Virus record (IMG/VR): IMGVR_UViG_3300031612_000080
Span: 1 to 22,600 of that record
Direction: 5' to 3' (one strand)
Length of the DNA: 22,600 nt
Source: a virus
This document shows, piece after piece, positions 4,708 through 22,600 of this stretch (position 1 is the first letter of the stretch; every line of letters starts with the position of its first letter). The notes under the pieces are model-generated. The model saw only the letters and a program-made list of their open reading frames with translations. It was not told the origin of the DNA and searched no databases. The position numbers were made by a program, and so were the translations under genes.

Positions 4708-6392
4708 TATCCGTTTGTAATTTTTCTAAACTCTTTAGCAATTGCTTTACCACCAGTACTTCTTCCATATGAATCAACATCTGTAGTATCATTAGTATCT
4801 ATTCCATCAGCAGGTTGTACATAGAATCTACCTCTTCCCATGTTAAACATCGCTTCAATATCAGTTTTATCTCGAGGTCGACCTGGTTTTAATGAAATTT
4901 CAATTATCATCTTTTCAGGAAAATCTTGAATACCTAAAGGACCGTCAAACGAAACTTTAGTATCTGTACATGCTAAATTACCAATGACTGCCATTGGATT
5001 TAAAGGGTTACCCACAGTTAAATGCCATTGGCCTGTCGGATCTCCCGATAGCATCGCTATAACAGATTGAGCTCCTTGTGGCGTGTTCATCATTTCCATT
5101 AAAGAACCACCTATCATATTTTTCACAGCTTTACCAATACCTTCTCCGATACCACTTAGGCCATTTCCTCCAGAAAATGAACTTGCCATACCTTTAAGAT
5201 CACCCATAACACTTCCAAGGAATCCGGTAATGTTTCCGCTCTTAAGCATATTAATGTCACCTAATGGCTTCCCAACACTTCCGTCACCGATCCATCTTGT
5301 AGAACCTCCCCAGAATGGAGCTGAACTATATGTTAATACTAATATGTTAGCAAGTTGATCTAACATTAATACCTTTGGATTAGCTCCTCCAATATCTCTT
5401 AATTCATATTCAAATTTAATTGTAAATTCCTGAGAGAAATTCAAACCTTGATCTCTTTGTAAAATACTCTTTATAACATTTAATGGTCCGAATACGTGAT
5501 TAGGATATGTCTCTTTAAATGAATCATAACCTGCATTTGCCTGTGCAGTTGCTACATCATGTGCATTATTACCATTCGAAGAACTTATAGCAGCAGATAG
5601 AAATTTATTACCATCAATCAAATCTCCCATTTTACCCCTCTTAGCACTATTCTTAGAATGCATAGTATTCACATCAGCTTCTACGGGCTTCCAACTATAA
5701 CCATGTGAAAAGTTTAATATATCTTTAAGGTTATTTCCGGTTTGTTCTCCAAGCCATGTTACAGCCCTCGCTATATCGGGCGATGACATCGGGACCGCCT
5801 TACCGTTTTTGTCTAACTCTGTAGGAGAGATAATATCATCAGGAGCGGGATAGGGAAATCTCCTAAGAGTTAGCATTCTGTTATTCGATATCTTATTGAA
5901 ATATTTAGCGAGAGCAAAGTCAGCATAATTATACCTATAGCCTAAGTTGCCACTATATCCTGATGTAATTTCTATTATCTTAGTGACTGAAGGGTTTTCT
6001 AATTCTTCAGGAGATATTTTATTATGAGTAGATCGTCCTCCACTTGGTAAATGCGGAGCATCCATTAAAGAATATTTATTGAATACTGAAAATGGTGCTG
6101 GATCTGGAGTTACGCTCAGTTCCTTTTTACCGTTACCAGCCTCTCTCTTGTATGTAACTGCTTCTTGGTTTTTTGTATAGTATATACTTGAACCATTAGT
6201 TTCATATACTTTAGGATATTGTCCGGGTGATGTTGAATTTGCAGCTACGTCAGAATCGACGTCTGTTTCGGATTTAGTAGCAGCTGTAGTATCACCCTCA
6301 ACACTGTCAGCCGACATGAATTGGCTGAATCTATCAAAAGCATTTATAGCTTCGTCTCCTATTGTTCCTAAATCAATACTAGGTAATCCCAT
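4707..6392 (-). CDS. Large tail/baseplate structural protein (tube-junction type)
   Basis: 561 aa. The first 60 residues are acidic and low-complexity. From about 150 it reads as a virion protein: YADFALAKYFNKISNNRMLTLRRFPYPAPD, a strand-rich FSQEFTIKFEYELRDIGG segment, and a glycine-rich middle (about 380-440, many Gly, Met and Ser). A C-terminal segment has WHLTVGNPLNPMAVIGNLAC, then FPEKMIIEISLKPGRPRDK and FNMGRGRFYV. The 'GNPLNP-IGNL ... FP-I-SLKPGRPRDK' ending is typical of baseplate/tube-junction proteins of contractile phages. No enzyme motif is visible. It is the first gene of the structural block. The start codon sits at the foot of an inverted repeat (see 6392-6417). Confidence 0.82.
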   Translation of the reverse strand: MGLPSIDLGTIGDEAINAFDRFSQFMSADSVEGDTTAATKSETDVDSDVAANSTSPGQYPKVYETNGSSIYYTKNQEAVTYKREAGNGKKELSVTPDPAPFSVFNKYSLMDAPHLPSGGRSTHNKISPEELENPSVTKIIEITSGYSGNLGYRYNYADFALAKYFNKISNNRMLTLRRFPYPAPDDIISPTELDKNGKAVPMSSPDIARAVTWLGEQTGNNLKDILNFSHGYSWKPVEADVNTMHSKNSAKRGKMGDLIDGNKFLSAAISSSNGNNAHDVATAQANAGYDSFKETYPNHVFGPLNVIKSILQRDQGLNFSQEFTIKFEYELRDIGGANPKVLMLDQLANILVLTYSSAPFWGGSTRWIGDGSVGKPLGDINMLKSGNITGFLGSVMGDLKGMASSFSGGNGLSGIGEGIGKAVKNMIGGSLMEMMNTPQGAQSVIAMLSGDPTGQWHLTVGNPLNPMAVIGNLACTDTKVSFDGPLGIQDFPEKMIIEISLKPGRPRDKTDIEAMFNMGRGRFYVQPADGIDTNDTTDVDSYGRSTGGKAIAKEFRKITNG

Positions 6393-6417
6393 ATAAACTA
6401 AATATCTTTAGTCTATA
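6392..6417 (-). promoter_or_regulatory. Inverted repeat abutting the start of the 561-aa structural gene
   Basis: On the plus strand TATA-A-ACTAAA, a 4-base TATC loop, then TTTAGT-C-TATA form 11-base arms with one mismatch. The repeat ends inside the start codon of the downstream gene, so in RNA it could mask the start, or in DNA it could bind a dimeric regulator. There is no T-run after it, so it is not a convincing intrinsic terminator. It lies in the only sizeable gap (38 bases) between the unknown-gene block and the baseplate block. Confidence 0.4.
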
Positions 6418-6430
6418 TATCATATTAAGT

Positions 6431-7018
6431 CTAATCAATCTTATCCAATTCTCTAGAAGGAACTCTATATAACATGTCATCAATAAAGCCATCGTTACCA
6501 TATCCTCTCTCACCTAAAAATTTTAACAGATAAGCTTTAAATACACCTTTACTTTCGTAATAATATGTACCTCCACTATACGGTGTTCTATTACAAAGCT
6601 CGAATAGATCCGAGATAGTCCTTTCTATAAAGAAGTTGTGAATATTATTAAATAACTCCATCATCTCATTCTTATGCTTACAAACCATAGGCCCGTCGAC
6701 TACAACTTTATATAGTTCACCTTTAGCATCTAAAAGATCTTGAAAATCTTGCTTCTTTGTATAGTTTTTACGAGTTAGTTTCCACGTAGTAGTCTTATTA
6801 CCAAAGTCTTTTCTGAATTTCATACCAACGAGAAACCTTCTAATGAAATCAATATCATCATATACTGTCAATATCTTAATTTGATATTCTGTAATCGTAT
6901 CACCATGTTTAACATCATGTATAATCCCCTTAACAGGAAACAACGTATTGTAGTTCCCTGTATTTGAAATTAATGCATGTATTTGTTCTCCTTTAGAATA
7001 TACCTTATTTCTTATCAA
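6431..7018 (-). CDS. Unrecognised phage protein, 195 aa, TTG start
   Basis: I do not recognise the family. The first 90 residues are strand-rich with an SH3/KOW-like feel (LFPVKGIIHDVKHGD, EYQIKILTVYDD). The rest is mixed alpha/beta and ends FIDDMLYRVPSRELDKID. The longest frame starts at a TTG and overlaps the upstream gene's stop by 14 bases. No ATG occurs near the N-terminus, so either TTG is used or the start is further in. It sits immediately upstream of the baseplate genes, so a structural or assembly role is possible but not shown. Confidence 0.72.
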   Translation of the reverse strand: MIRNKVYSKGEQIHALISNTGNYNTLFPVKGIIHDVKHGDTITEYQIKILTVYDDIDFIRRFLVGMKFRKDFGNKTTTWKLTRKNYTKKQDFQDLLDAKGELYKVVVDGPMVCKHKNEMMELFNNIHNFFIERTISDLFELCNRTPYSGGTYYYESKGVFKAYLLKFLGERGYGNDGFIDDMLYRVPSRELDKID

Positions 7019-7412
7019 AATTATATTGTTTGTAGTTACTGAATAAATCTAACACGTCTTCGTCTATTTCTTCGTCTATATTTATTGCAACTAAATTAAC
7101 GTCTTCTAAATCTTCAAACATTTCAAAAACTAAACTTTTAAAATTGTTTACTGTTTCGACATCTAAGTTTTTCAATAAATATATTATTCTATCGCTATTT
7201 TGCTTTTTACGAACGTTGTTTAGCACATTCTTGATAGCCATACCTATAATAAACGGATGAGGTTCTACATCATGAAAATCTGACTTCACCAGTTTCGTAA
7301 TGATAGAGATATAATCCACTTGAGTCGTGGACTTATCACTTTCTATTCTAACGTACTTATTAAATTCACGTTTAGAATAACACCATATACAATCTATCGA
7401 AGTCACTTTCAC
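7005..7412 (-). CDS. Unrecognised phage protein, 135 aa
   Basis: ATG start, MKVTSIDCIWCYSKREFNKY. It contains a helical middle (IIGMAIKNVLNNVRKK), then YLLKNLDVETVNNFKSLVFEMFEDLED and an acidic C-terminal half. Cys8 and Cys11 are the only cysteines, so no complete metal site is seen. The next gene downstream overlaps its stop. No function can be assigned from the sequence. Confidence 0.75.
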   Translation of the reverse strand: MKVTSIDCIWCYSKREFNKYVRIESDKSTTQVDYISIITKLVKSDFHDVEPHPFIIGMAIKNVLNNVRKKQNSDRIIYLLKNLDVETVNNFKSLVFEMFEDLEDVNLVAINIDEEIDEDVLDLFSNYKQYNFDKK

Positions 7413-7414
7413 AG

Positions 7415-7729
7415 TTATTTAAGTCTATTTCTAAGTTCTTTAACTTCGCATTCAATATCTTTAATCCTTGAATGCATTTCCTCATCTGTAGGCTCATAAT
7501 TAATACCCCAATCCTCAGTAATCTTAATCTGATTACGTTGTCTTGAGTTACCGAAGTCCATACCAACATCTAAACAAATGTCTCGTATAAATTCCATTTT
7601 ATTAATCGGGCCACCGCTCCACTCATAAATCCTTACAGATTCATAAGTATCACCACCGGCATTTATATTGTCATCTTGAATTTCTCTAATGACACCGTTT
7701 TCCGCTATTTTAAGAATTATTGTTTGCAT
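7415..7729 (-). CDS. Unrecognised phage protein, 104 aa, C-terminal coiled coil
   Basis: ATG start, MQTIILKIAENGVI. A strand-rich N-terminal half (VRIYEWSGGP) is followed by a charged helical end (DEEMHSRIKDIECEVKELRN) with heptad-like spacing of hydrophobic residues, so a short coiled coil is likely. The start overlaps the end of the upstream gene by 20 bases. I preferred this frame to a 65-aa frame that overlaps it, because it has sensible spacing and protein-like composition. Confidence 0.72.
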   Translation of the reverse strand: MQTIILKIAENGVIREIQDDNINAGGDTYESVRIYEWSGGPINKMEFIRDICLDVGMDFGNSRQRNQIKITEDWGINYEPTDEEMHSRIKDIECEVKELRNRLK

Positions 7730-9346: not shown

Positions 9347-9793
9347 TTAAATTGACTTAGTAAGAGATGACATGAACGCTGATATACCTTCTTGAGAAGT
9401 ACCTGCATTTACAAATGCTTCATTGATCTCTTCTTGAGAATACATCTTCACGCTTTCAGATTCTACAACTTCAGCACCTTCCATTTCAACCATCTCATTA
9501 ATTTTCTTAGAGTAAGCATCTTTAAGTGAATGTACTGCAGTTTCAAATTGCTCTGTCGTATACTCTTCGTTACATTCTTTAAGAACTTTAACTGCGAGAG
9601 CAGCTACTAATGCAGCATTCTCTTTCATATAAGATTCTACAGTATGATCGTCATGTACGTCTCCGTTCCATTCGGTTGCTTCTGTGACAGCGTGTTCGTA
9701 GCATTCATATAGTTTATCGGAAACGTTGAACTTCTTAGATACAGCATCTTCGTTAAGGTATGATTCGAATGTTTTGATTTTATTAAGTTTCAT
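9347..9793 (-). CDS. Small acidic helical protein with capsid-targeting-like N-terminus
   Basis: 148 aa. The N-terminus MKLNKIKTFESYLNE followed by DAV matches the capsid-targeting sequence and cleavage rule known from T4 internal head proteins, where the prohead protease cuts after Glu preceded by a hydrophobic and a small or polar residue. Cleavage here would fall after E15. The rest is acidic and helical (VKVLKECNEEYTTEQFETAV), with no enzyme motif. It starts 2 bases after the hydrolase gene. Two other proteins in the window share the same N-terminal pattern. Packaging into the head is inference; if correct, this is an internal protein ejected with the DNA. Confidence 0.8.
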   Translation of the reverse strand: MKLNKIKTFESYLNEDAVSKKFNVSDKLYECYEHAVTEATEWNGDVHDDHTVESYMKENAALVAALAVKVLKECNEEYTTEQFETAVHSLKDAYSKKINEMVEMEGAEVVESESVKMYSQEEINEAFVNAGTSQEGISAFMSSLTKSI

Positions 9794-9795
9794 AG

Positions 9796-10314
9796 TTATT
9801 GTGTTTTTTTATTTGTATGGAATGCGTTAAAGGATTGTACATTAGATTCGCGTAGATTCATAATATCTGAAACAGCATCTACTAAGACATCATATGGAAC
9901 TCGATGTCCATCATTATATTCTGTATAATAGAAACTACCAGAACCATCATGTCCAAAGTATCTCATTACATCTTGGCCGTTTACAGTCTTGTCTTGCTTA
10001 CCAAGATATACGTTATGGTTCTTACCTTTTAGTTTCGAATCATCTACGACCGGATCGAATGGTCTATCAACTACTGCCGGATTAAACAATACAGTCTTGA
10101 TACCGAGTTTACTTCCAATTAAATATGCAAAGTAACCTCCCATTGAAGATCCAACTATTAAATCAGCACCTTTGCATCCCTTTAAAGTTTCAGCAAACGC
10201 TTTATCGCTTTTGTAGTTTATTTTAGGAGCGTATACATCAAAGTTTTCTTTTAACCATTCGACTTTACGTCCAGTATTTGAGCTTTCAAGTCCGTGTAAG
10301 TATGCTATTTTCAT
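9796..10314 (-). CDS. Alpha/beta hydrolase, YqiA-like esterase family
   Basis: 172 aa, a compact serine hydrolase. Motifs: LHG at 6-8 (oxyanion region), G55-S-S57-M-G59-G (nucleophile elbow, Ser57), GKQD with Asp108, and DGHR with His137. The triad Ser57-Asp108-His137 is complete, with the spacing of YqiA/UPF0227 esterases. The substrate is unknown. A 15-residue polar tail follows the core. The gene overlaps the stop of the upstream 200-aa gene by 4 bases (ATGA), so the two are coupled. Both neighbours have capsid-targeting-like N-termini but this one does not, so it should act in the cytoplasm of the infected cell. Confidence 0.88.
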   Translation of the reverse strand: MKIAYLHGLESSNTGRKVEWLKENFDVYAPKINYKSDKAFAETLKGCKGADLIVGSSMGGYFAYLIGSKLGIKTVLFNPAVVDRPFDPVVDDSKLKGKNHNVYLGKQDKTVNGQDVMRYFGHDGSGSFYYTEYNDGHRVPYDVLVDAVSDIMNLRESNVQSFNAFHTNKKTQ

Positions 10315-10913
10315 ATCTTTGGATTACCTATTAATATTTTAGTATGTGGAGATCCTCCAAGCATTCTAGTGTACCATCCATTACCACTTAGTGATTTGTT
10401 TTCTGGATGCTCGCCGTGCCATTCGATATCTTTACCTTTGAGTAATTTTTCGACATCTTCTTGAACATCGACTGAAGGTACATTGTATTTGTCCATCATA
10501 ATATCTGCTAGTTTTCCACTAACTTCAATATAATATCCAGATTTCTTTAGAACATTAGACGTATGTACCAAATATTCTTTAGTACTATCCTTCATACCGT
10601 CATGACCAACTCCACTGAACTTCACACCGAATTTAGTGTCCGATCCCCATAGAATTACATCTAAATCTGGAGATCCATGTAAATCAACTCCTTGCCAAAA
10701 CGTCCACTTAGTATCTCCGAATACATCTTCAGGTGTTTTGATCTTTACATGTCCACCTATTGTAGAGTATGCAATGTTTATTAGATCAAAGAATTCACCA
10801 GATAGCTCTTTATGTTTTCTCGGATCCACCTTAACCCACTTACCTGGTTTGGTTTTAAGAACATCACCACTGTTTTCAGCAACAAAATCCTCATATAGTT
10901 TAATCTTCTTCAT
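10311..10913 (-). CDS. Conserved phage-type protein with capsid-targeting-like N-terminus, 200 aa
   Basis: The N-terminus MKKIKLYEDFVAE followed by NSG is very close to the T4 capsid-targeting pattern, with predicted cleavage after E13. The body looks like a folded globular domain (FFDLINIAYSTIGGHVKI, DLHGSPDLDVILWG, GYYIEVSGKLADIM, NGWYTRMLGGSPHTKILIG). It resembles an unnamed family I associate with other tailed phages, but I cannot name an activity. No nucleotide-binding loop or clear catalytic triad is visible; the His, Asp and Gly residues in the middle could form a site. It is coupled to the hydrolase gene. A packaged or injected role is inference. Confidence 0.82.
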   Translation of the reverse strand: MKKIKLYEDFVAENSGDVLKTKPGKWVKVDPRKHKELSGEFFDLINIAYSTIGGHVKIKTPEDVFGDTKWTFWQGVDLHGSPDLDVILWGSDTKFGVKFSGVGHDGMKDSTKEYLVHTSNVLKKSGYYIEVSGKLADIMMDKYNVPSVDVQEDVEKLLKGKDIEWHGEHPENKSLSGNGWYTRMLGGSPHTKILIGNPKI

Positions 10914-10957
10914 GTAAATGAAATATGTTTATAATACTATATATTAATTTAATTGCA

Positions 10958-11362
10958 TTACTTTTTTAAACCTAATTCAGCATTATCTGCTCTTACACAA
11001 TCTTCTAATGCACTCAATATGATCGCATCCATTTCAGTTCCACTTAAGCTATTAACAAATGAATTGATAATACCTTCAACGATAGAATCTTTATCTTCGA
11101 CCATCTGAGATATGCTAAAGTTCTCTTCGAACATTTCATAAGCGCTTGATGTGAGTGATGTACAAATTCGAGCAACAACGTTTTCATTGTCATTGAATCG
11201 ACGACCAGATATATTATCTGTGTTTTTGATCTTGTCAAATATAACAGATTCACTGTGTCTCATTCTATATAAAAATACGGTTGTCATTAAAGTTCCACCC
11301 GATGCTTTCATAGCTGGTGTGTGGTAGCCTGTTCCGTTTGATTTGATGTCTGATGCTTTCAT
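10958..11362 (-). CDS. Unrecognised phage protein, 134 aa
   Basis: ATG start, MKASDIKSNGTGYHTPAM. It has a Lys/Ser/Gly-rich first 30 residues, then a helical acidic C-terminal part (YEMFEENFSISQMVEDKD, IILSALEDCVRADNAEL). No family recognised. It is the first gene after a promoter cassette of the shared type (11374-11451) and precedes the 200-aa gene by 44 bases, so it probably heads that unit. Confidence 0.75.
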   Translation of the reverse strand: MKASDIKSNGTGYHTPAMKASGGTLMTTVFLYRMRHSESVIFDKIKNTDNISGRRFNDNENVVARICTSLTSSAYEMFEENFSISQMVEDKDSIVEGIINSFVNSLSGTEMDAIILSALEDCVRADNAELGLKK

Positions 11363-11373
11363 AATAGTTTTTA

Positions 11374-11451
11374 ATGTTGGTTAGTATTAATTGGTTATAA
11401 GTAAATATAATAAATAAATCTGAACTAAAAAAATCTAGAACAGTTTATTTT
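11374..11451 (-). promoter_or_regulatory. Promoter cassette, class B (with inverted repeat)
   Basis: Minus-strand order: AAAATAAAC, a T-rich block (ATTTTTTTAGT), a matching ATTTATTT arm, the core TATATTTAC, then TTATAACCAATTAATACTA before the 134-aa gene. The same ordered elements occur at six other gene junctions. The core TATATTTA differs by one base from the Bacteroidota -7 consensus TAnnTTTG. The first element contains the stop codon of the upstream 59-aa gene. Confidence 0.6.
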
Positions 11452-11624
11452 TGTTTTAGTTTATCAAGTACACACTCTAATCCCATGATCCAACCTTCAT
11501 TAAGTCCATGTGCATTAGCATCGTCTAAATTACCACAGTCCCACCATTCCTCATCAGGTTCAAAACCAACTTTAGCTTTAGTTAATAAGTCTTCAGCATA
11601 TTTAATAATTTCTTCTCTAGTCAT
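11445..11624 (-). CDS. Unrecognised small protein, 59 aa
   Basis: ATG at 11622-11624, TAA at 11445-11447. The N-terminus is MTREEIIKYAEDLLTKAKVG. The middle is acidic with WWDCGNLDDANAHGLNEG and the end is MGLECVLDKLKQK. It starts one base after the stop of the 69-aa gene and follows it in the same unit. Protein-like composition and tight spacing support it as a gene. No function recognised. Confidence 0.72.
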   Translation of the reverse strand: MTREEIIKYAEDLLTKAKVGFEPDEEWWDCGNLDDANAHGLNEGWIMGLECVLDKLKQK

Positions 11625-11625
11625 C

Positions 11626-11835
11626 TTAGTCTTCTTTTAGTATATTGATTCTACTTCTTAACCTTCCTTGTAATTGAAACGATGCCCAATTATTATCTAA
11701 GTATTCCATTTCTTCTACTATTCGCTTATTTGCATATAGTCTAACTAAATCACCTAAATCTACTATGTTGCCTCCATCAATGAATGTTGTTTTTGTATTT
11801 GCTACATAGTAGCTTAACGTTTCTTCTGCTGTCAT
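11626..11835 (-). CDS. Unrecognised small protein, 69 aa
   Basis: I chose the ATG at 11833-11835 (MTAEETLSYYVANTKTTF). The frame stays open for 13 codons upstream, but those codons are the promoter cassette itself, which reads as the same peptide in front of two other genes. The protein is mixed alpha/beta and ends LRSRINILKED. First gene after a class A cassette. Function unknown. Confidence 0.74.
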   Translation of the reverse strand: MTAEETLSYYVANTKTTFIDGGNIVDLGDLVRLYANKRIVEEMEYLDNNWASFQLQGRLRSRINILKED

Positions 11836-11837
11836 CT

Positions 11838-11872
11838 TTGTTAGTTTTAATTGGTTATAAAGTAAATATAAC
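11838..11872 (-). promoter_or_regulatory. Promoter cassette, class A, copy 1
   Basis: Core TATATTTAC followed by TTTATAACCAATTAAAACTA, then six bases and the start codon. GTTATA and TATAAC flank the core as inverted arms. Together with the adjacent terminator it is identical over 83 bases to the copy at 21590-21672. It should drive the 69-aa and 59-aa genes. Confidence 0.65.
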
Positions 11873-11901
11873 AAAAAAACCCGAGACTAAAAAATCTCGG
11901 G
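11873..11901 (-). terminator. Intrinsic terminator, class A, copy 1
   Basis: Minus strand: CCCGAGA stem, 8-base loop, TCTCGGG stem, then seven T residues. GC-rich stem plus T-run is a textbook rho-independent terminator. It lies 30 bases beyond... upstream of the promoter core of the 69-aa gene and downstream of the nucleotidyltransferase gene end (11932), so it ends the long 17807-11932 operon. Confidence 0.88.
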
Positions 11902-11931
11902 CAGTTTATTTTCAAAAAAGTTTAATTAATA

Positions 11932-13005
11932 TTAAATCAGATCATCGACTATCTTGATGTAGTCGTCTATTAAGTTTCTAGCCTTTTGAACAGCAGCATG
12001 TGCGGCTGGCGTATCAGCTTTATTAAATTTAGAAGCATTATATGTAATCATCATAGATGTTCTATATTCACTTGCGATACTATTCATGAAATCATCAGCA
12101 TTTTTGAAATTCAATAAGTCTCCAAATAATCCATTATCTTCTAATGTATCTGCAAGTCCTTTGATTGCTTCTACCATTCTTGGCATATCAAGTCCTTTTA
12201 CTTCAACACCTTTATATTTCTCAAGACCTTTTGACGGTTTCATGTCTCCTTCCTTTTTAAGATACTCAAAAAAGAATACAGCGATATCATGCAAGAAGTT
12301 ATTGAAGTCTAATGAAATAACCTTCTCTTCAACTCCAGATCTCTTAGACCATTGAGATAAAACATCTCCTTTGAATTTACCTCTTACACCTCGATCTTGT
12401 ATTGACAATCCTAAATTACCAGCAAGTGTAGAATACATCTTACCTAATACAAAACCTTTTACGTCTCTCATTGGTGTGTATCTTTGAAGAGCCCATTCCT
12501 CATAAGGAGGATGTGTAGTAACCATATCAGCTTGAATGTGTTCTAGATTACCGTCAACTTCAACTTTAAATAATATCTTAACACTACCAAGAGATGACAT
12601 GTTGTATGTTTCTCCTGCATCGACATAAGATAAGTTTGACATTTCAAGGAATCTGAATAATTCACCGTTATATGTTTTAATAGAAGCAACCTCGTCCTTC
12701 CTAGAACCTTTAGTTTCTATTTGAAGTAATGGATATGAAACTAAATAATCAATATCTCCGTAGATCTTATCTGGCTGATTAATTAAATCATCTTCATACC
12801 AAGAACCAGAACCAATTGCTTTTATAAATTTAAGAGGTGGCAGTCCAGCTGATTTAAGATGTACATTAAATTCTTTATCGAATTCTTTTATCTGTTTGTC
12901 TACTGCTTTTAAAACTTTAGGTGTTAGCTTAGTTTCTTGAGTTTTCGTAGAACTCCATCCACCTTCATTCAAAAATTCATTAAGCGATATAATCTTCCTG
13001 TTCAT
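11932..13005 (-). CDS. Nucleotidyltransferase-fold protein with capsid-targeting-like N-terminus
   Basis: 357 aa. After an N-terminal leader MNRKIISLNEFLNE (predicted cleavage after E14, before GGW) comes a nucleotidyltransferase signature: IGSGSW at 64-69, then GDIDYLV with D84 and D86 as the metal-binding pair, and a third acidic strand HIQADMV with D160. This is the hG[GS]...DxD...D layout of the polymerase-beta-like superfamily, which transfers NMP groups to proteins, RNA or small molecules. The C-terminal half is helical (FNNFLHDIAVFFFEYLKKEG). The substrate is unknown. It is the last gene before a strong terminator and follows a metallophosphoesterase by 2 bases. With the leader it could be packaged and injected, like T4 Alt; that is inference. 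Confidence 0.85.
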   Translation of the reverse strand: MNRKIISLNEFLNEGGWSSTKTQETKLTPKVLKAVDKQIKEFDKEFNVHLKSAGLPPLKFIKAIGSGSWYEDDLINQPDKIYGDIDYLVSYPLLQIETKGSRKDEVASIKTYNGELFRFLEMSNLSYVDAGETYNMSSLGSVKILFKVEVDGNLEHIQADMVTTHPPYEEWALQRYTPMRDVKGFVLGKMYSTLAGNLGLSIQDRGVRGKFKGDVLSQWSKRSGVEEKVISLDFNNFLHDIAVFFFEYLKKEGDMKPSKGLEKYKGVEVKGLDMPRMVEAIKGLADTLEDNGLFGDLLNFKNADDFMNSIASEYRTSMMITYNASKFNKADTPAAHAAVQKARNLIDDYIKIVDDLI

Positions 13006-17526: not shown

Positions 17527-17807
17527 TACACTGTTTTTAAGTTTCCTTTAACTTCATTGAGAGCTTTTAGAATAATCGTACATTTTTCATACTCTTCACT
17601 TTCTGTAAAATGCTCAAGCATATCACTGAGAGTTTTCTCTATTTCATGTTGTTGGTAATCTCCATTCAAATTATTGAAATCTATATCACCACTATTTACA
17701 GCTTCGAAATTCTTTCGAGCAAGAGCATCTTTCATGCGATCTTTCAGCATTGATTGTTCTTGTTCGCTGTACATTTCGTCTTCGAAGTCCATCATTTCAT
17801 CATCCAT
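17526..17807 (-). CDS. Small acidic protein with C-terminal YEKC module (copy 3), 93 aa
   Basis: The C-terminal region LSDMLEHFTESEEYEKCTII (60-79, YEKC at 73-76) matches the modules of the 85-aa and 90-aa proteins. The N-terminus is very acidic and Met-rich (MDDEMMDFEDEMYSEQEQSM). First gene of the long operon, directly after a class B promoter cassette. Function unknown, but the sharing of the module with the two bS21 neighbours ties the three together. Confidence 0.77.
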   Translation of the reverse strand: MDDEMMDFEDEMYSEQEQSMLKDRMKDALARKNFEAVNSGDIDFNNLNGDYQQHEIEKTLSDMLEHFTESEEYEKCTIILKALNEVKGNLKTV

Positions 17808-17810
17808 AGT

Positions 17811-17880
17811 TGTTTGTTTTTAATTATAGTTAAATATAACAAATAAATCTGACAGTAAAAAACTTTTTGGTGTTTATTTT
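17811..17880 (-). promoter_or_regulatory. Promoter cassette, class B, start of the long operon
   Basis: Minus-strand order: AAAATAAAC, a T-run block TTTTTTACTGTCAG, ATTTATTTG, then core TTATATTTA followed by ACTATAATTAAAAA before the ATG at 17807. AAATAAA and TTTATTT are inverted arms around the T-run block. It is the most diverged copy downstream of the core. It precedes the operon that includes bS21, phoH and the nucleotidyltransferase. Confidence 0.6.
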
Positions 17881-18208
17881 ACCACTTTTTTGCTGGACAT
17901 TCTTTTGCTTTAGCAAAAACCATCGCAGGAAATTGGCAACCACATTGATTACATTTGTAACCCGTAACAGCATCATCCTTTTTATGTTCTTTAGGATTAA
18001 ACGCAGCTCTTACTTTATGTTTAGCACCACCTGGCATGAGTTTCTCAATAAACGTAAACGTACCAGATTCTACTAGATTTGGACATGTTTTACAAATTGC
18101 TGCTCTTTTTTCTGCAAGGTCTTTAACATCTTCAGGTAAATTGTCATAGTTTGAAAATGCATTGAGGTAGTTTCCCCATCCGTCTTTAATATCTTTAAAT
18201 ATTCCCAT
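17879..18208 (-). CDS. Zinc-binding Cys-cluster protein, 109 aa
   Basis: C39-x-x-C42 in RAAICKTCPN and C86-x-x-C89-x-C91 in YKCNQCGCQF, plus C104 in ECPAKKW at the C-terminus, give a likely zinc ribbon-type site. The middle is basic (GGAKHKVRAAFNPKEHKK). The end 'CP-KW' recurs in small phage and prophage proteins of Bacteroidota as far as I recall. Likely binds nucleic acid or protein; not assignable further. Starts 2 bases after the 24-aa ORF. Confidence 0.8.
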   Translation of the reverse strand: MGIFKDIKDGWGNYLNAFSNYDNLPEDVKDLAEKRAAICKTCPNLVESGTFTFIEKLMPGGAKHKVRAAFNPKEHKKDDAVTGYKCNQCGCQFPAMVFAKAKECPAKKW

Positions 18209-19937: not shown

Positions 19938-19952
19938 GATATTTTAGCGTTT

Positions 19953-20024
19953 AGTTAGTATTAATTGGTTATAAGTAAATATAACAAATAAACTTGACAG
20001 TAAAAAATCCTGTGCGTTTATTTT
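19953..20024 (-). promoter_or_regulatory. Promoter cassette, class B (copy before the 71-aa gene)
   Basis: AAAATAAAC, then CACAGGATTTTTTACTGTCA, then GTTTATTTG, core TTATATTTAC, then TTATAACCAATTAATACTAA. The 8-base arms AAATAAAC and GTTTATTT are perfect inverted repeats around the T-run block. The core 18 bases GTTATATTTACTTATAAC also form an inverted repeat (GTTATA/TATAAC). Confidence 0.62.
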
Positions 20025-20034
20025 CAATTTATTT

Positions 20035-20226
20035 TTAATTAATTGAAGCAACGATCATGCTTGTAAAGTAATCCTTCTCACTAACAGTCGCTTCACTATT
20101 AATTAATATCATTAATTCTTTACTGCTTTTACATGTATCGATTTTATCGTTCCAATCAGCGTTGAGGTTTAATGGCATTCTGCGCATTGTACTTTTTAAA
20201 TGTTCTAATGTTGTTTGATTTTCCAT
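20035..20226 (-). CDS. Unrecognised small protein, 63 aa
   Basis: ATG start, MENQTTLEHLKSTMRRMPLN, with a polar middle (NADWNDKIDTCKSSKELM) and a helical end. It follows the 67-aa gene by 12 bases in the same unit. No function recognised. Confidence 0.68.
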   Translation of the reverse strand: MENQTTLEHLKSTMRRMPLNLNADWNDKIDTCKSSKELMILINSEATVSEKDYFTSMIVASIN

Positions 20227-20238
20227 CTTGTTTTTCTT

Positions 20239-20442
20239 TTAGTTAGATTGTCTTTTTATTTCTGATGTATTAACATCACTTTCATGTTCTCTAAGGAACT
20301 CTATCAATTCGAGTATAGTTTCCTTGGAATCACCACGTTCTATCATATGAGTAACTACTCGTAATATACCGTAACTTCTGAAACAGCTCTCGTGTATATT
20401 ATCTATAGTCGTTGGTCTTGATAGTATTTCTTTTATTTTCAT
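20239..20442 (-). CDS. Unrecognised small protein, 67 aa
   Basis: Start chosen at ATG 20440-20442 (MKIKEILSRPTTIDNIHESC), by analogy with the other cassettes, which keep six bases between AAACTA and the start codon. An ATG two codons earlier is also possible. Mostly helical, with a charged ILELIEFLREHESD segment. First gene after the second class A cassette. Unknown function. Confidence 0.7.
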   Translation of the reverse strand: MKIKEILSRPTTIDNIHESCFRSYGILRVVTHMIERGDSKETILELIEFLREHESDVNTSEIKRQSN

Positions 20443-20444
20443 AG

Positions 20445-20479
20445 TCATTAGTTTTAATTGGTTATAGAGTAAATATAAC
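20445..20479 (-). promoter_or_regulatory. Promoter cassette, class A, copy 2
   Basis: Core TATATTTAC followed by TCTATAACCAATTAAAACTA. One base differs from the other class A copies between the core and TATAACC (C for T). It drives the 67-aa and 63-aa genes. Confidence 0.62.
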
Positions 20480-20508
20480 AAAAAAACCCGAGACTAAAAA
20501 ATCTCGGG
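20480..20508 (-). terminator. Intrinsic terminator, class A, copy 2
   Basis: Same CCCGAGA / 8-base loop / TCTCGGG hairpin and seven T residues as the other class A copies. It lies after the end of the 93-aa gene (20523) and ends its unit. Confidence 0.87.
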
Positions 20509-20522
20509 CAGTTTATTTTCAA

Positions 20523-20804
20523 TTAGAATACTAATAAACTAATAGGAACATTAAGACTTCTGTTACGACTATCACTAACAACAACTTTCGTCTTATTAAT
20601 TTTAATAATTTTGAAATCTGTATTTAAACAACTTCTATCAGCAACTTGAACTGTCATTCCAATCTTAAGGGATGCTTTAGTTATATTATCTGATGTAACT
20701 CTGTTTGAGTTGATAGTGTCAACAACAAGTGTGTTGATGTTTTCTAATTGCTCCGTAGAAAGATTTGAAGTTGCAATTGCTTTAACGATTTGAGAATAAG
20801 TCAT
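20523..20804 (-). CDS. Unrecognised small protein with SH3/KOW-like end, 93 aa
   Basis: ATG start. A helical N-terminal half (MTYSQIVKAIATSNLSTEQL) is followed by a strand-rich segment KIGMTVQVADRSCLNTDFKI onward, ending SLNVPISLLVF. The 'KIGMTVQV ... KIIKINKTKVVV' pattern resembles a KOW/SH3-like barrel, which often binds nucleic acid. Single gene between a class B promoter and a class A terminator. The role is inference. Confidence 0.74.
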   Translation of the reverse strand: MTYSQIVKAIATSNLSTEQLENINTLVVDTINSNRVTSDNITKASLKIGMTVQVADRSCLNTDFKIIKINKTKVVVSDSRNRSLNVPISLLVF

Positions 20805-20811
20805 AGTAGAT

Positions 20812-20879
20812 AGTTTTAATTGGTTATAAGTAAATATAACAAATAAGCTTGACAGTAAAAAATCCTGTGTGTTTATTTT
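20812..20879 (-). promoter_or_regulatory. Promoter cassette, class B (copy before the 93-aa gene)
   Basis: Order as in the other class B copies: AAAATAAAC, ACACAGGATTTTTTACTGTC, AAGCTTATTTG, core TTATATTTAC, TTATAACCAATTAAAACTA. The downstream arm carries one base change (GCTTATTT), so the outer inverted repeat is imperfect. The core inverted repeat is intact. Confidence 0.62.
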
Positions 20880-20891
20880 TAATTTATTTTG

Positions 20892-21292: not shown

Positions 21293-21592
21293 TTAGTATT
21301 TTGTTGTTTCATCTGATTGTCGAAGTAACCTAGAGAAAACCTCTACGAATTTTTCATTCCGAGACATTGTATGCTCTCCCATTGTATCTAGAATAAAATG
21401 TACCTTTTCGTGGTAATATGTATCTAATATAATCGATTTGTCTAGATTATCTCCTTTGTAGTTTTCACATAAAGTAATTAAATTATCTGTAACATTAGAT
21501 TCTCCTAATACAGATTCGTTACTTAGTCTCAAACTATCATAATTTACAGTAACTGTTGTCGCAAACAGTTTAAAGCTTTTAGGTATATCCAT
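21293..21592 (-). CDS. Small HExxH metallopeptidase-like protein, 99 aa
   Basis: Start at ATG 21590-21592, downstream of a class A cassette. The sequence TYYHEKVHFILDTMGEH contains a HExxH zinc motif (H-E-K-V-H), followed about 18 residues on by NEKFVEVFSRLLRQ, which has a suitable third-ligand Glu. The layout fits small zincins of the ImmA/IrrE-like or phage 'HExxH plus NE' kind. Those often cut regulators, but here nothing shows the target. There are no cysteines for a zinc ribbon except one Cys at LCENY. The small size means it may be a minimal peptidase or an inactive relative; the family is tentative. Confidence 0.78.
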   Translation of the reverse strand: MDIPKSFKLFATTVTVNYDSLRLSNESVLGESNVTDNLITLCENYKGDNLDKSIILDTYYHEKVHFILDTMGEHTMSRNEKFVEVFSRLLRQSDETTKY

Positions 21593-21594
21593 CT

Positions 21595-21629
21595 TTGTTA
21601 GTTTTAATTGGTTATAAAGTAAATATAAC
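21595..21629 (-). promoter_or_regulatory. Promoter cassette, class A, copy 3
   Basis: Core TATATTTAC, then TTTATAACCAATTAAAACTA. Identical to copy 1 across 83 bases, including the terminator and the six bases to the start codon. Drives the 99-aa, 57-aa and 71-aa genes. Confidence 0.65.
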
Positions 21630-21658
21630 AAAAAAACCCGAGACTAAAAAATCTCGGG
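21630..21658 (-). terminator. Intrinsic terminator, class A, copy 3
   Basis: CCCGAGA stem, 8-base loop, TCTCGGG stem, seven T residues. It lies just after the galE stop (21684) and ends that transcript. Confidence 0.88.
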
Positions 21659-21683
21659 CAGTTTATTTTCAATTTATTTTCAA

Positions 21684-22600
21684 TTACATTCGTCTATTCA
21701 TTTCCCAATTCCAGGAATCTTTCATACAATCTCCTAGAGTTTTTTCAGCGAACCATTTAAATTCCTTCTCTATTAAAGAACAATCTGAATATACTTCTAC
21801 AACATCTCCTTCTCGTCTATCACCTATGGTATAATCTATACGTTCTCCAGTTGCCTCTTCAAAACTCTTAATAGCTTCAAGTACACTGACACCCTTTCCA
21901 GTTCCAACGTTAAATACGTATTTACCTTCACGTGAGTTTATATACTTGAGAGCAGATACATGAGATTTAGCTAAATCAACAACATGAATATAATCACGAA
22001 TACATGTTCCATCGATAGTTTCATAATCATCTCCATACACTGTTATTCCATTTCCATATTTCAATGCTGTTGTAATAACTGGTACTAAATTAGAAGGTTT
22101 GTCATTTGACCTATCTCCTATGAGTGCACTTTCATGAGAACCTATAGGATTAAAGTACCTTAAGGCAACGCTGTTTATTTTAATAGATTCGTTTATTATA
22201 TTTTCACAGATCTGTTTTGTTTCAGCGTATGGAGATTCTGCTGGTTTGAACGGTGTGCTTTCAGTTACTGGAAGCTTGTCAGCATTGCCATACACTGAAC
22301 ATGATGATGAGAATATTAGATTGTTAACTTTAAACGTGCTCATCACATCCATCAATGATTCCAATGAACCTATATTGTTCTTAAAATACTTACTAGGATT
22401 TTTTACAGATTCTCCTACAGATTTGAAAGCAGCAAAGTGTATTACACCAGCAATTCCCTCTCCAACATCTTTAAACACATCATACAATGCACTAACATCA
22501 GCACAATCTACGTTATAGTATTTTATACCTGTTGCTATTATTGATTCAATGCCCTTAATGTTATCTTTAGTTGTATTCGAGAAATTATCTACTATTATCG
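21684..22600 (-). CDS. galE: UDP-glucose 4-epimerase, 5' end cut by window edge
   Basis: About 304 aa are visible; a full GalE is about 338 aa, so roughly 30 N-terminal residues (with the Rossmann glycine loop) lie beyond the window. The frame is open to the edge. Visible motifs: VDNFSN, then GVIHFAAFKSVGESV, the SSSCSVYGN segment with the catalytic Ser, PYAETK with the catalytic Tyr-x-x-x-Lys, NPIGSH, TCIRDYIHVVDLA and FNVGTGKGVSVLE. These fit GalE throughout. It interconverts UDP-glucose and UDP-galactose. In a phage this may feed glycosylation of the virion, of DNA or of the host surface; which one is inference. A class A terminator follows. Confidence 0.93.
   Translation of the reverse strand, partial: IIVDNFSNTTKDNIKGIESIIATGIKYYNVDCADVSALYDVFKDVGEGIAGVIHFAAFKSVGESVKNPSKYFKNNIGSLESLMDVMSTFKVNNLIFSSSCSVYGNADKLPVTESTPFKPAESPYAETKQICENIINESIKINSVALRYFNPIGSHESALIGDRSNDKPSNLVPVITTALKYGNGITVYGDDYETIDGTCIRDYIHVVDLAKSHVSALKYINSREGKYVFNVGTGKGVSVLEAIKSFEEATGERIDYTIGDRREGDVVEVYSDCSLIEKEFKWFAEKTLGDCMKDSWNWEMNRRM

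Follow-up and report, generated by a model that had tools for sequence, protein, structure and literature searches.

Three window proteins with a common leader

The window analysed here is the whole 22,600-nucleotide stretch at positions 1 to 22,600 of the IMG/VR virus record IMGVR_UViG_3300031612_000080, and it is contained in the 31.7-kb IMG/VR contig 3300031647_000033 (G001), its parent contig. Three genes on the minus strand of the window encode proteins with unrelated bodies that begin with a common short leader, resembling the leader of the internal head proteins (IPs) of phage T4. Protein 1 (148 amino acids, aa; 9347..9793) starts with MKLNKIKTFESYLNE (9749..9793; predicted cut before Asp16), protein 2 (200 aa; 10311..10913) with MKKIKLYEDFVAE (10875..10913; predicted cut before Asn14) and protein 3 (357 aa; 11932..13005) with MNRKIISLNEFLNE (12964..13005; predicted cut before Gly15). 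An earlier note on this DNA, made from its letters without database searches, had described these three open reading frames (ORFs), and all were confirmed in position, strand and length, with start codons supported because orthologues begin in register. The alignment of the N-termini was likewise reproduced, with MKLNKIKTFESYLNE, MKKIKLYEDFVAE and MNRKIISLNEFLNE sharing the pattern hydrophobic-x-x-[FYL]-x-x-[FY]-[LV]-x-E. F/Y-x-x-F/Y is present in two of the three; protein 3 has Leu in the first place (LNEF), where its orthologue has Phe. The processing-site triplets are LNE, VAE and LNE, and the residues directly after the Glu (P1') are D, N and G, compared to a preference for A/S/G in the wider set described below.

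The bodies fell into three separate homology clusters, in agreement with the note's view that they are unrelated. No Pfam domain was found in any of the three proteins, PHROGs gave only weak matches, to families whose function is different or unknown, and no homology of the mature bodies to T4 IPI, IPII or IPIII was detected with Pfam, PHROGs or tblastn. In tblastn against annotated phages, proteins 1 and 3 had no match and protein 2 matched uncultured huge phages only. The body of protein 2 was also seen at L001 20001-20501 (735-kb phage LR756501) and L002 20001-20546 (634-kb phage LR745206), and the L002 relative starts MKHLKAFEEYEFPKNKW, which retains the leader's aromatic half and lacks the cut site. 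This body is of unknown fold, and its predicted model was uninformative (predicted local distance difference test, pLDDT, 36). Protein 3 has the look of a Pol-beta-type nucleotidyltransferase, an unproven resemblance based on the motifs GSGSWY...GDIDYLV...IQADMV (G[SG], D-x-D and a third Asp), which are retained in its orthologue; profile searches and a fold search of the PDB with its model (pLDDT 56) returned nothing significant.

Recurrence of the leader and a probable cut site after the glutamate

The search motif was derived from the three window leaders and T4, with the internal rate in the same proteins as the expectation; as controls, it found IPII and IPIII in T4 and nothing in lambda. 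In the window alone a looser motif gave 3 matches compared to 0.41 expected (P about 0.009), and on the parent contig the strict motif was found in 3 of 49 genes compared to 0.06 expected (P about 3e-5). The genome-wide scan that the earlier note had proposed was extended to four relatives, G010 (236 kb), G007 (145 kb), G020 (167 kb) and G021 (130 kb), which have tail, baseplate, PhoH, DnaJ and deaminase genes in common with the window's contig. Tagged genes made up 23 of 291 in G010 (0.38 expected; P about 6e-33), 17 of 190 in G020, 13 of 154 in G007 and 8 of 144 in G021, with 0.28-0.38 expected in each, an excess of up to 60-fold over the internal rate. The recurrence was suggestive in the window alone and decisive with the relatives included. 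Adjacent tagged pairs were also in excess in G010 (13 compared to 1.7 expected) and G020 (6 compared to 1.3), with no significant result in G007 and G021.

Within each contig, all tagged proteins differ in body, with no shared homology. The four contigs, together with loci from an IMG/VR DNA-pattern scan, yielded 241 distinct tagged proteins in 124 body clusters, and an alignment of the 124 cluster representatives confined conservation to MKHIKLFE-x-F-x-N-E. The exact consensus leans to the MKHIKLFE type because the DNA-pattern scan picked such leaders; residues past the second aromatic lay outside the DNA pattern. The same leader on many unrelated proteins of syntenic relatives supports the note's proposal of a sorting tag. 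Recent DNA duplication and a mobile leader segment were ruled out, as the 23 G010 leaders are unlike one another in their codons and in the DNA preceding them, indicating that conservation acts on amino acids and not on recently copied DNA.

The leader was also retained within each family. Protein 1 was found in every related contig examined; its orthologues, of which the distant ones have an acidic stretch, start with MINKMKMYEAFVGE, MASIKKFEEFVSE or MSKKILSFEEYVRE. A leader of the same type was present on protein 1 in G002, G003, G007, G010, G020 and G021 (in G004 it is located within a longer ORF), with very different letters, as in MASIKKFEEFVSE and MSKKILSFEEYVRE, so the pattern is retained as the residues vary. 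Another 18 IMG/VR contigs encode relatives of protein 2, and a Glu-terminated leader of the same kind was found in all 18 (MKKIKLYEQFIEE, MKKIKLYEEFIDE, MIKRVKLFEDFINE and similar), with Ala replacing Ile/Leu/Val before the Glu in two of them (MKKIKLYEEFANE). The single orthologue of protein 3, in G020, is 42% identical and reads MKKVLLFEQFITE|GGW compared to MNRKIISLNEFLNE|GGW in the window.

The P1' position was absent from every search pattern, and its composition could be compared with background using one representative per cluster. Ala (34), Ser (26) and Gly (14) together accounted for 74 of 124 P1' residues (60%) compared to a background of 19.6% (p 1.4e-22), and Ile, Leu, Val, Thr, Pro and the aromatics were jointly depleted (10 compared to about 46 expected). 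Positions P2' to P8' were at background, with P5' marginal, and conservation ended after the Glu. When only the aromatic half was required, a Glu stood in the expected position in 68 of 90 N-termini compared to 8 of 38 internal controls. This unselected P1' preference and the conservation ending right after the Glu are what a cut site would be expected to show, and not an uncut docking helix. In the T4 sequences the sites of IPII, IPIII, IPI and gp23 all read E|A, where the Glu is the residue after which T4 cuts. Residues 4 and 7 of the T4 leader serve targeting and residues 8 and 10 processing, and an Asp at position 10 blocks cutting and leaves targeting intact (PMC9026906). Mapped onto T4, positions 4, 7, 8 and 10 are the four conserved in the present leaders.

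Head genes of relatives and the readings of the leader

Of 24 related records, 11 had an S77 protease match scoring better than the Pfam cut-off, in most cases within an ORF about 640 aa long. Most of the 11 also have a Gp23 shell gene near the protease. PHROGs identified the protease ORF as a head maturation protease over residues 12-478. The protease is fused to the scaffold (G010 5510-7432, with orthologues in G007, G020 and G021), and the counterpart in Tenacibaculum phage PTm1 bears the annotation 'prohead core scaffolding protein and protease'. Leader-like sites abound in the scaffold too, since the part past the protease repeats [FYH]-x-x-[FYH]-[LIVA]-x-E about every 14 residues. An acidic tagged protein of 113-134 aa, beginning MRYVKLFEQFIKE, MKYVKLFEQFIKE or MKIIKTFEEFTSSLQE|D, is encoded between portal and protease, the prohead-core gene position at which T4 has gp67 and gp68, and the shell protein has the conserved sites LINE|A and LYE|D ahead of its core.

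We consider it very likely that the leader is a T4-type capsid-targeting sequence, removed by the prohead protease, and that the body is packed with the DNA and delivered at infection. The two aromatics (T4 positions 4 and 7) would dock the new protein onto the prohead core during head building, the S77 (gp21-type) prohead protease would cut past the Glu (position 10) and release the body inside the head, and the freed body would be packed alongside the DNA and then enter the host at infection. We infer docking, cutting, packaging and injection, and likewise a protease in the window's own phage.

Three observations weigh against this reading. The Glu was absent in 22 of the 90 leaders with the aromatic half; leaders without a complete site had a later site in 10 of 24 cases compared to 15% by chance, and they can be read as uncut or as cut further on, as in T4 IPI (MKTFKEFTSTTTPVSTITE|A). 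No protease was found in the window's contig (a fragment without a capsid gene) or among 14 contigs from its nearest relatives, which are likewise fragments around tail genes and do not reach the head genes; the gp21-like protease for which the earlier note had suggested a scan was found, together with the gp23-type shell protein, in syntenic relatives. Finally, other S77-bearing Bacteroidota phages (parts of PTm1) gave no clear excess of leaders, so the leader is not universal in phages with this protease.

Some leaders with the aromatic half and no Glu would also be expected if the leader docked, uncut, to another structure (a membrane assembly site, a replication compartment or a host complex) and the Glu were merely part of an amphipathic helix. 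A role outside the head is compatible with the sequence, and cargo such as a DNA ligase or an AAA ATPase would be sensible within the infected cell too. We regard this as improbable, given the P1' preference, which no pattern had selected, and the sharp end of conservation past the Glu, and given the acidic tagged protein in the head gene cluster and a scaffold that repeats the motif. Chance resemblance of the three N-termini has a practically negligible probability; the loose-motif count for the window alone leaves it some room, but it is refuted by the tagged-gene counts in relatives (23 of 291 in G010), and the leader conserved within families and the P1' signal also speak against it.

A less likely reading than delivery is that, once cut, the tagged proteins mostly stay in the head or are lost from it, as head-assembly or core components, and are not delivered as host effectors. 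T4 gp67 and gp68 are core proteins of this kind, cleaved or lost (PMC9026906), and protein 1 would fit, since every related contig examined encodes it and its distant orthologues are acidic. Most tagged genes, however, vary from one relative to the next, and some look like genes for enzymes that target host or signalling molecules (such as the Acb1 relative described below), which fits cargo better. The core-component reading may nonetheless hold for protein 1, for which a structural head role is as likely as delivery as cargo.

Putative cargo, range and neighbouring features

The majority of tagged bodies had no family match. A relative of Acb1, which acts against the cyclic-oligonucleotide-based antiphage signalling system (anti-CBASS), was found in G010 (204974-205516) with the leader MKRIKLFEEFLNE, a score of 31.3 bits compared to a cut-off of 27, and both His motifs; its cluster holds six tagged proteins, the other five in other contigs. 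Other named tagged proteins in the relatives include an ATP-dependent DNA ligase, an HD-domain protein, an AAA ATPase, ATP-grasp and GNAT proteins. It is a reasonable guess that many tagged proteins deliver host-takeover or counter-defence functions. To learn which proteins a phage injects, one normally cultures it and analyses its virions by mass spectrometry. Provided that the tag is real, the probable injected proteins of uncultured jumbo phages could be listed from sequence, most of them of unknown function and some resembling counter-defence enzymes.

T4 IPI, IPII and IPIII carry the capsid-targeting sequence MKTYQEFIAE (Mullaney and Black 1996, reviewed in PMC9026906). The present proteins share with them a short N-terminal leader with aromatic-x-x-Phe-[ILV]-x-Glu and a small residue past the Glu, unrelated bodies, several copies per genome and, in syntenic relatives, an S77 protease. 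They differ in leaders of 13-15 residues with an extra MKxIK part, in numbers (up to 23 copies per contig compared to three in T4), in cargo unrelated to the T4 IPs, in a protease fused to the scaffold and in belonging to uncultured phages, probably of Bacteroidota. At least 10 internal proteins of the variable T-even ip loci are recognised by the same signal (Repoila et al. 1994, cited in PMC12373910), and Ip1-3 inhibit Type IV restriction enzymes (PMC12373910). The arrangement of one packaging leader with changing, clustered cargo genes is common to both, but the number and variety are far larger here, in distant phages. T4 Alt, an ADP-ribosyltransferase that is injected and undergoes processing at both ends (PMC9026906), is comparable as enzyme cargo and as a possible parallel to the C-terminal tags below; its leader MELITELFDE differs, and the window proteins include no Alt relative. 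In the giant Salmonella phage SPN3US, too, the propeptides of inner head proteins are substrates of a Glu-specific prohead protease, which cuts at A-x-E, but most of these propeptides exceed 100 residues, and processing was found for eight head proteins only (PMC5694885). No paper reporting this leader was found in a literature search whose coverage left out most subscription journals. As far as sequence goes, the note's interpretation is well supported. On this reading a device known from T4 reaches a new and far larger range of phages and cargo, its capsid-targeting code applies to distant relatives as well, and packaging signals suited to other proteases become available.

A 462-kb uncultured phage has the leader in another dialect (MKYILEYEEFLLE), with 8 in one 50-kb stretch compared to about 0 expected, and a 634-kb phage gave a weaker signal (KYxxFI[NK]E; 19 compared to 3.5 expected). 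The scanned parts of PTm1 (2 matches compared to 0.76 expected), MaF61 (0) and Lak-A2 (1 compared to 0.62) were near background, and no cultured relative with a clear leader set was found among the scanned phages. In bacterial genome bins the exact DNA pattern occurred in two contigs only, one of them in a Bacteroidetes bin, and comparison of the capsid protein points mostly to Bacteroidota phages as the nearest named relatives; the host phylum of the lineage is probably Bacteroidota. A 2025 article on aquatic jumbo phages of Bacteroidota (PMC12619734) may cover related viruses, and a term search of it turned up no mention of N-termini. The broader proposal, which we hold to be about as likely as not, is that large T4-related phages, probably infecting Bacteroidota, load dozens of enzymes and counter-defence proteins (including the Acb1 type) by one tag, placed N-terminally, C-terminally or between domains, so that these would reach the host before phage gene expression.

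Between the genes of proteins 1 and 2 lies one for a UPF0227 esterase-like protein (172 aa; 9796..10314, minus strand; Pfam 9e-12), whose C-terminus may bear a tag, NLRE|SNVQSFNAFHTNKKTQ (9799..9846, minus strand; based on sequence and orthologues). This end reads as a possible cut site followed by F-x-x-F, that is, the leader turned round, and orthologues end YLNE|MQRIKMFEEFKNLD or run on past KIKE|SKVHSFQSFHDNKILEE|N into another domain. In G002, G003 and G004 the esterase is joined to extra domains at the spot of the C-terminal tag. Two further proteins have ends of this sort: VTE|SVTNEIMTFEQFINKDI in a cytidylyltransferase-like one of 623 aa, and KKFKSFEDFIKD in one of 182 aa, whose G010 version reads FKSFEQFINE|S before a new domain. 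The cytidylyltransferase-like family (G010 42885-44756, G007 79438-81309, G021 69381-71219 and G020 68671-69936, truncated in G020) has a conserved leader-like C-terminal end (EIMTFEQFINKDI) past the possible cut site. C-terminal processing occurs in T4 Alt as well (PMC9026906). The genome-wide count of C-terminal tags as a whole was not clearly above chance, and these tags are therefore a lead only, limited to three families.

An intergenic repeat of 84-101 nucleotides occurs in seven copies between operons of the window (11372-11472, 11833-11933, 17801-17901, 19946-20046, 20440-20540, 20807-20890 and 21590-21690). Several copies combine a CCCGAGA/TCTCGGG hairpin with an adjoining AT-rich block, and the repeat is probably a terminator followed by a promoter. 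Ahead of some genes its 5' part translates in frame as MLYLLYNQLKLTKM, so the TTG starts of those genes are probably wrong.

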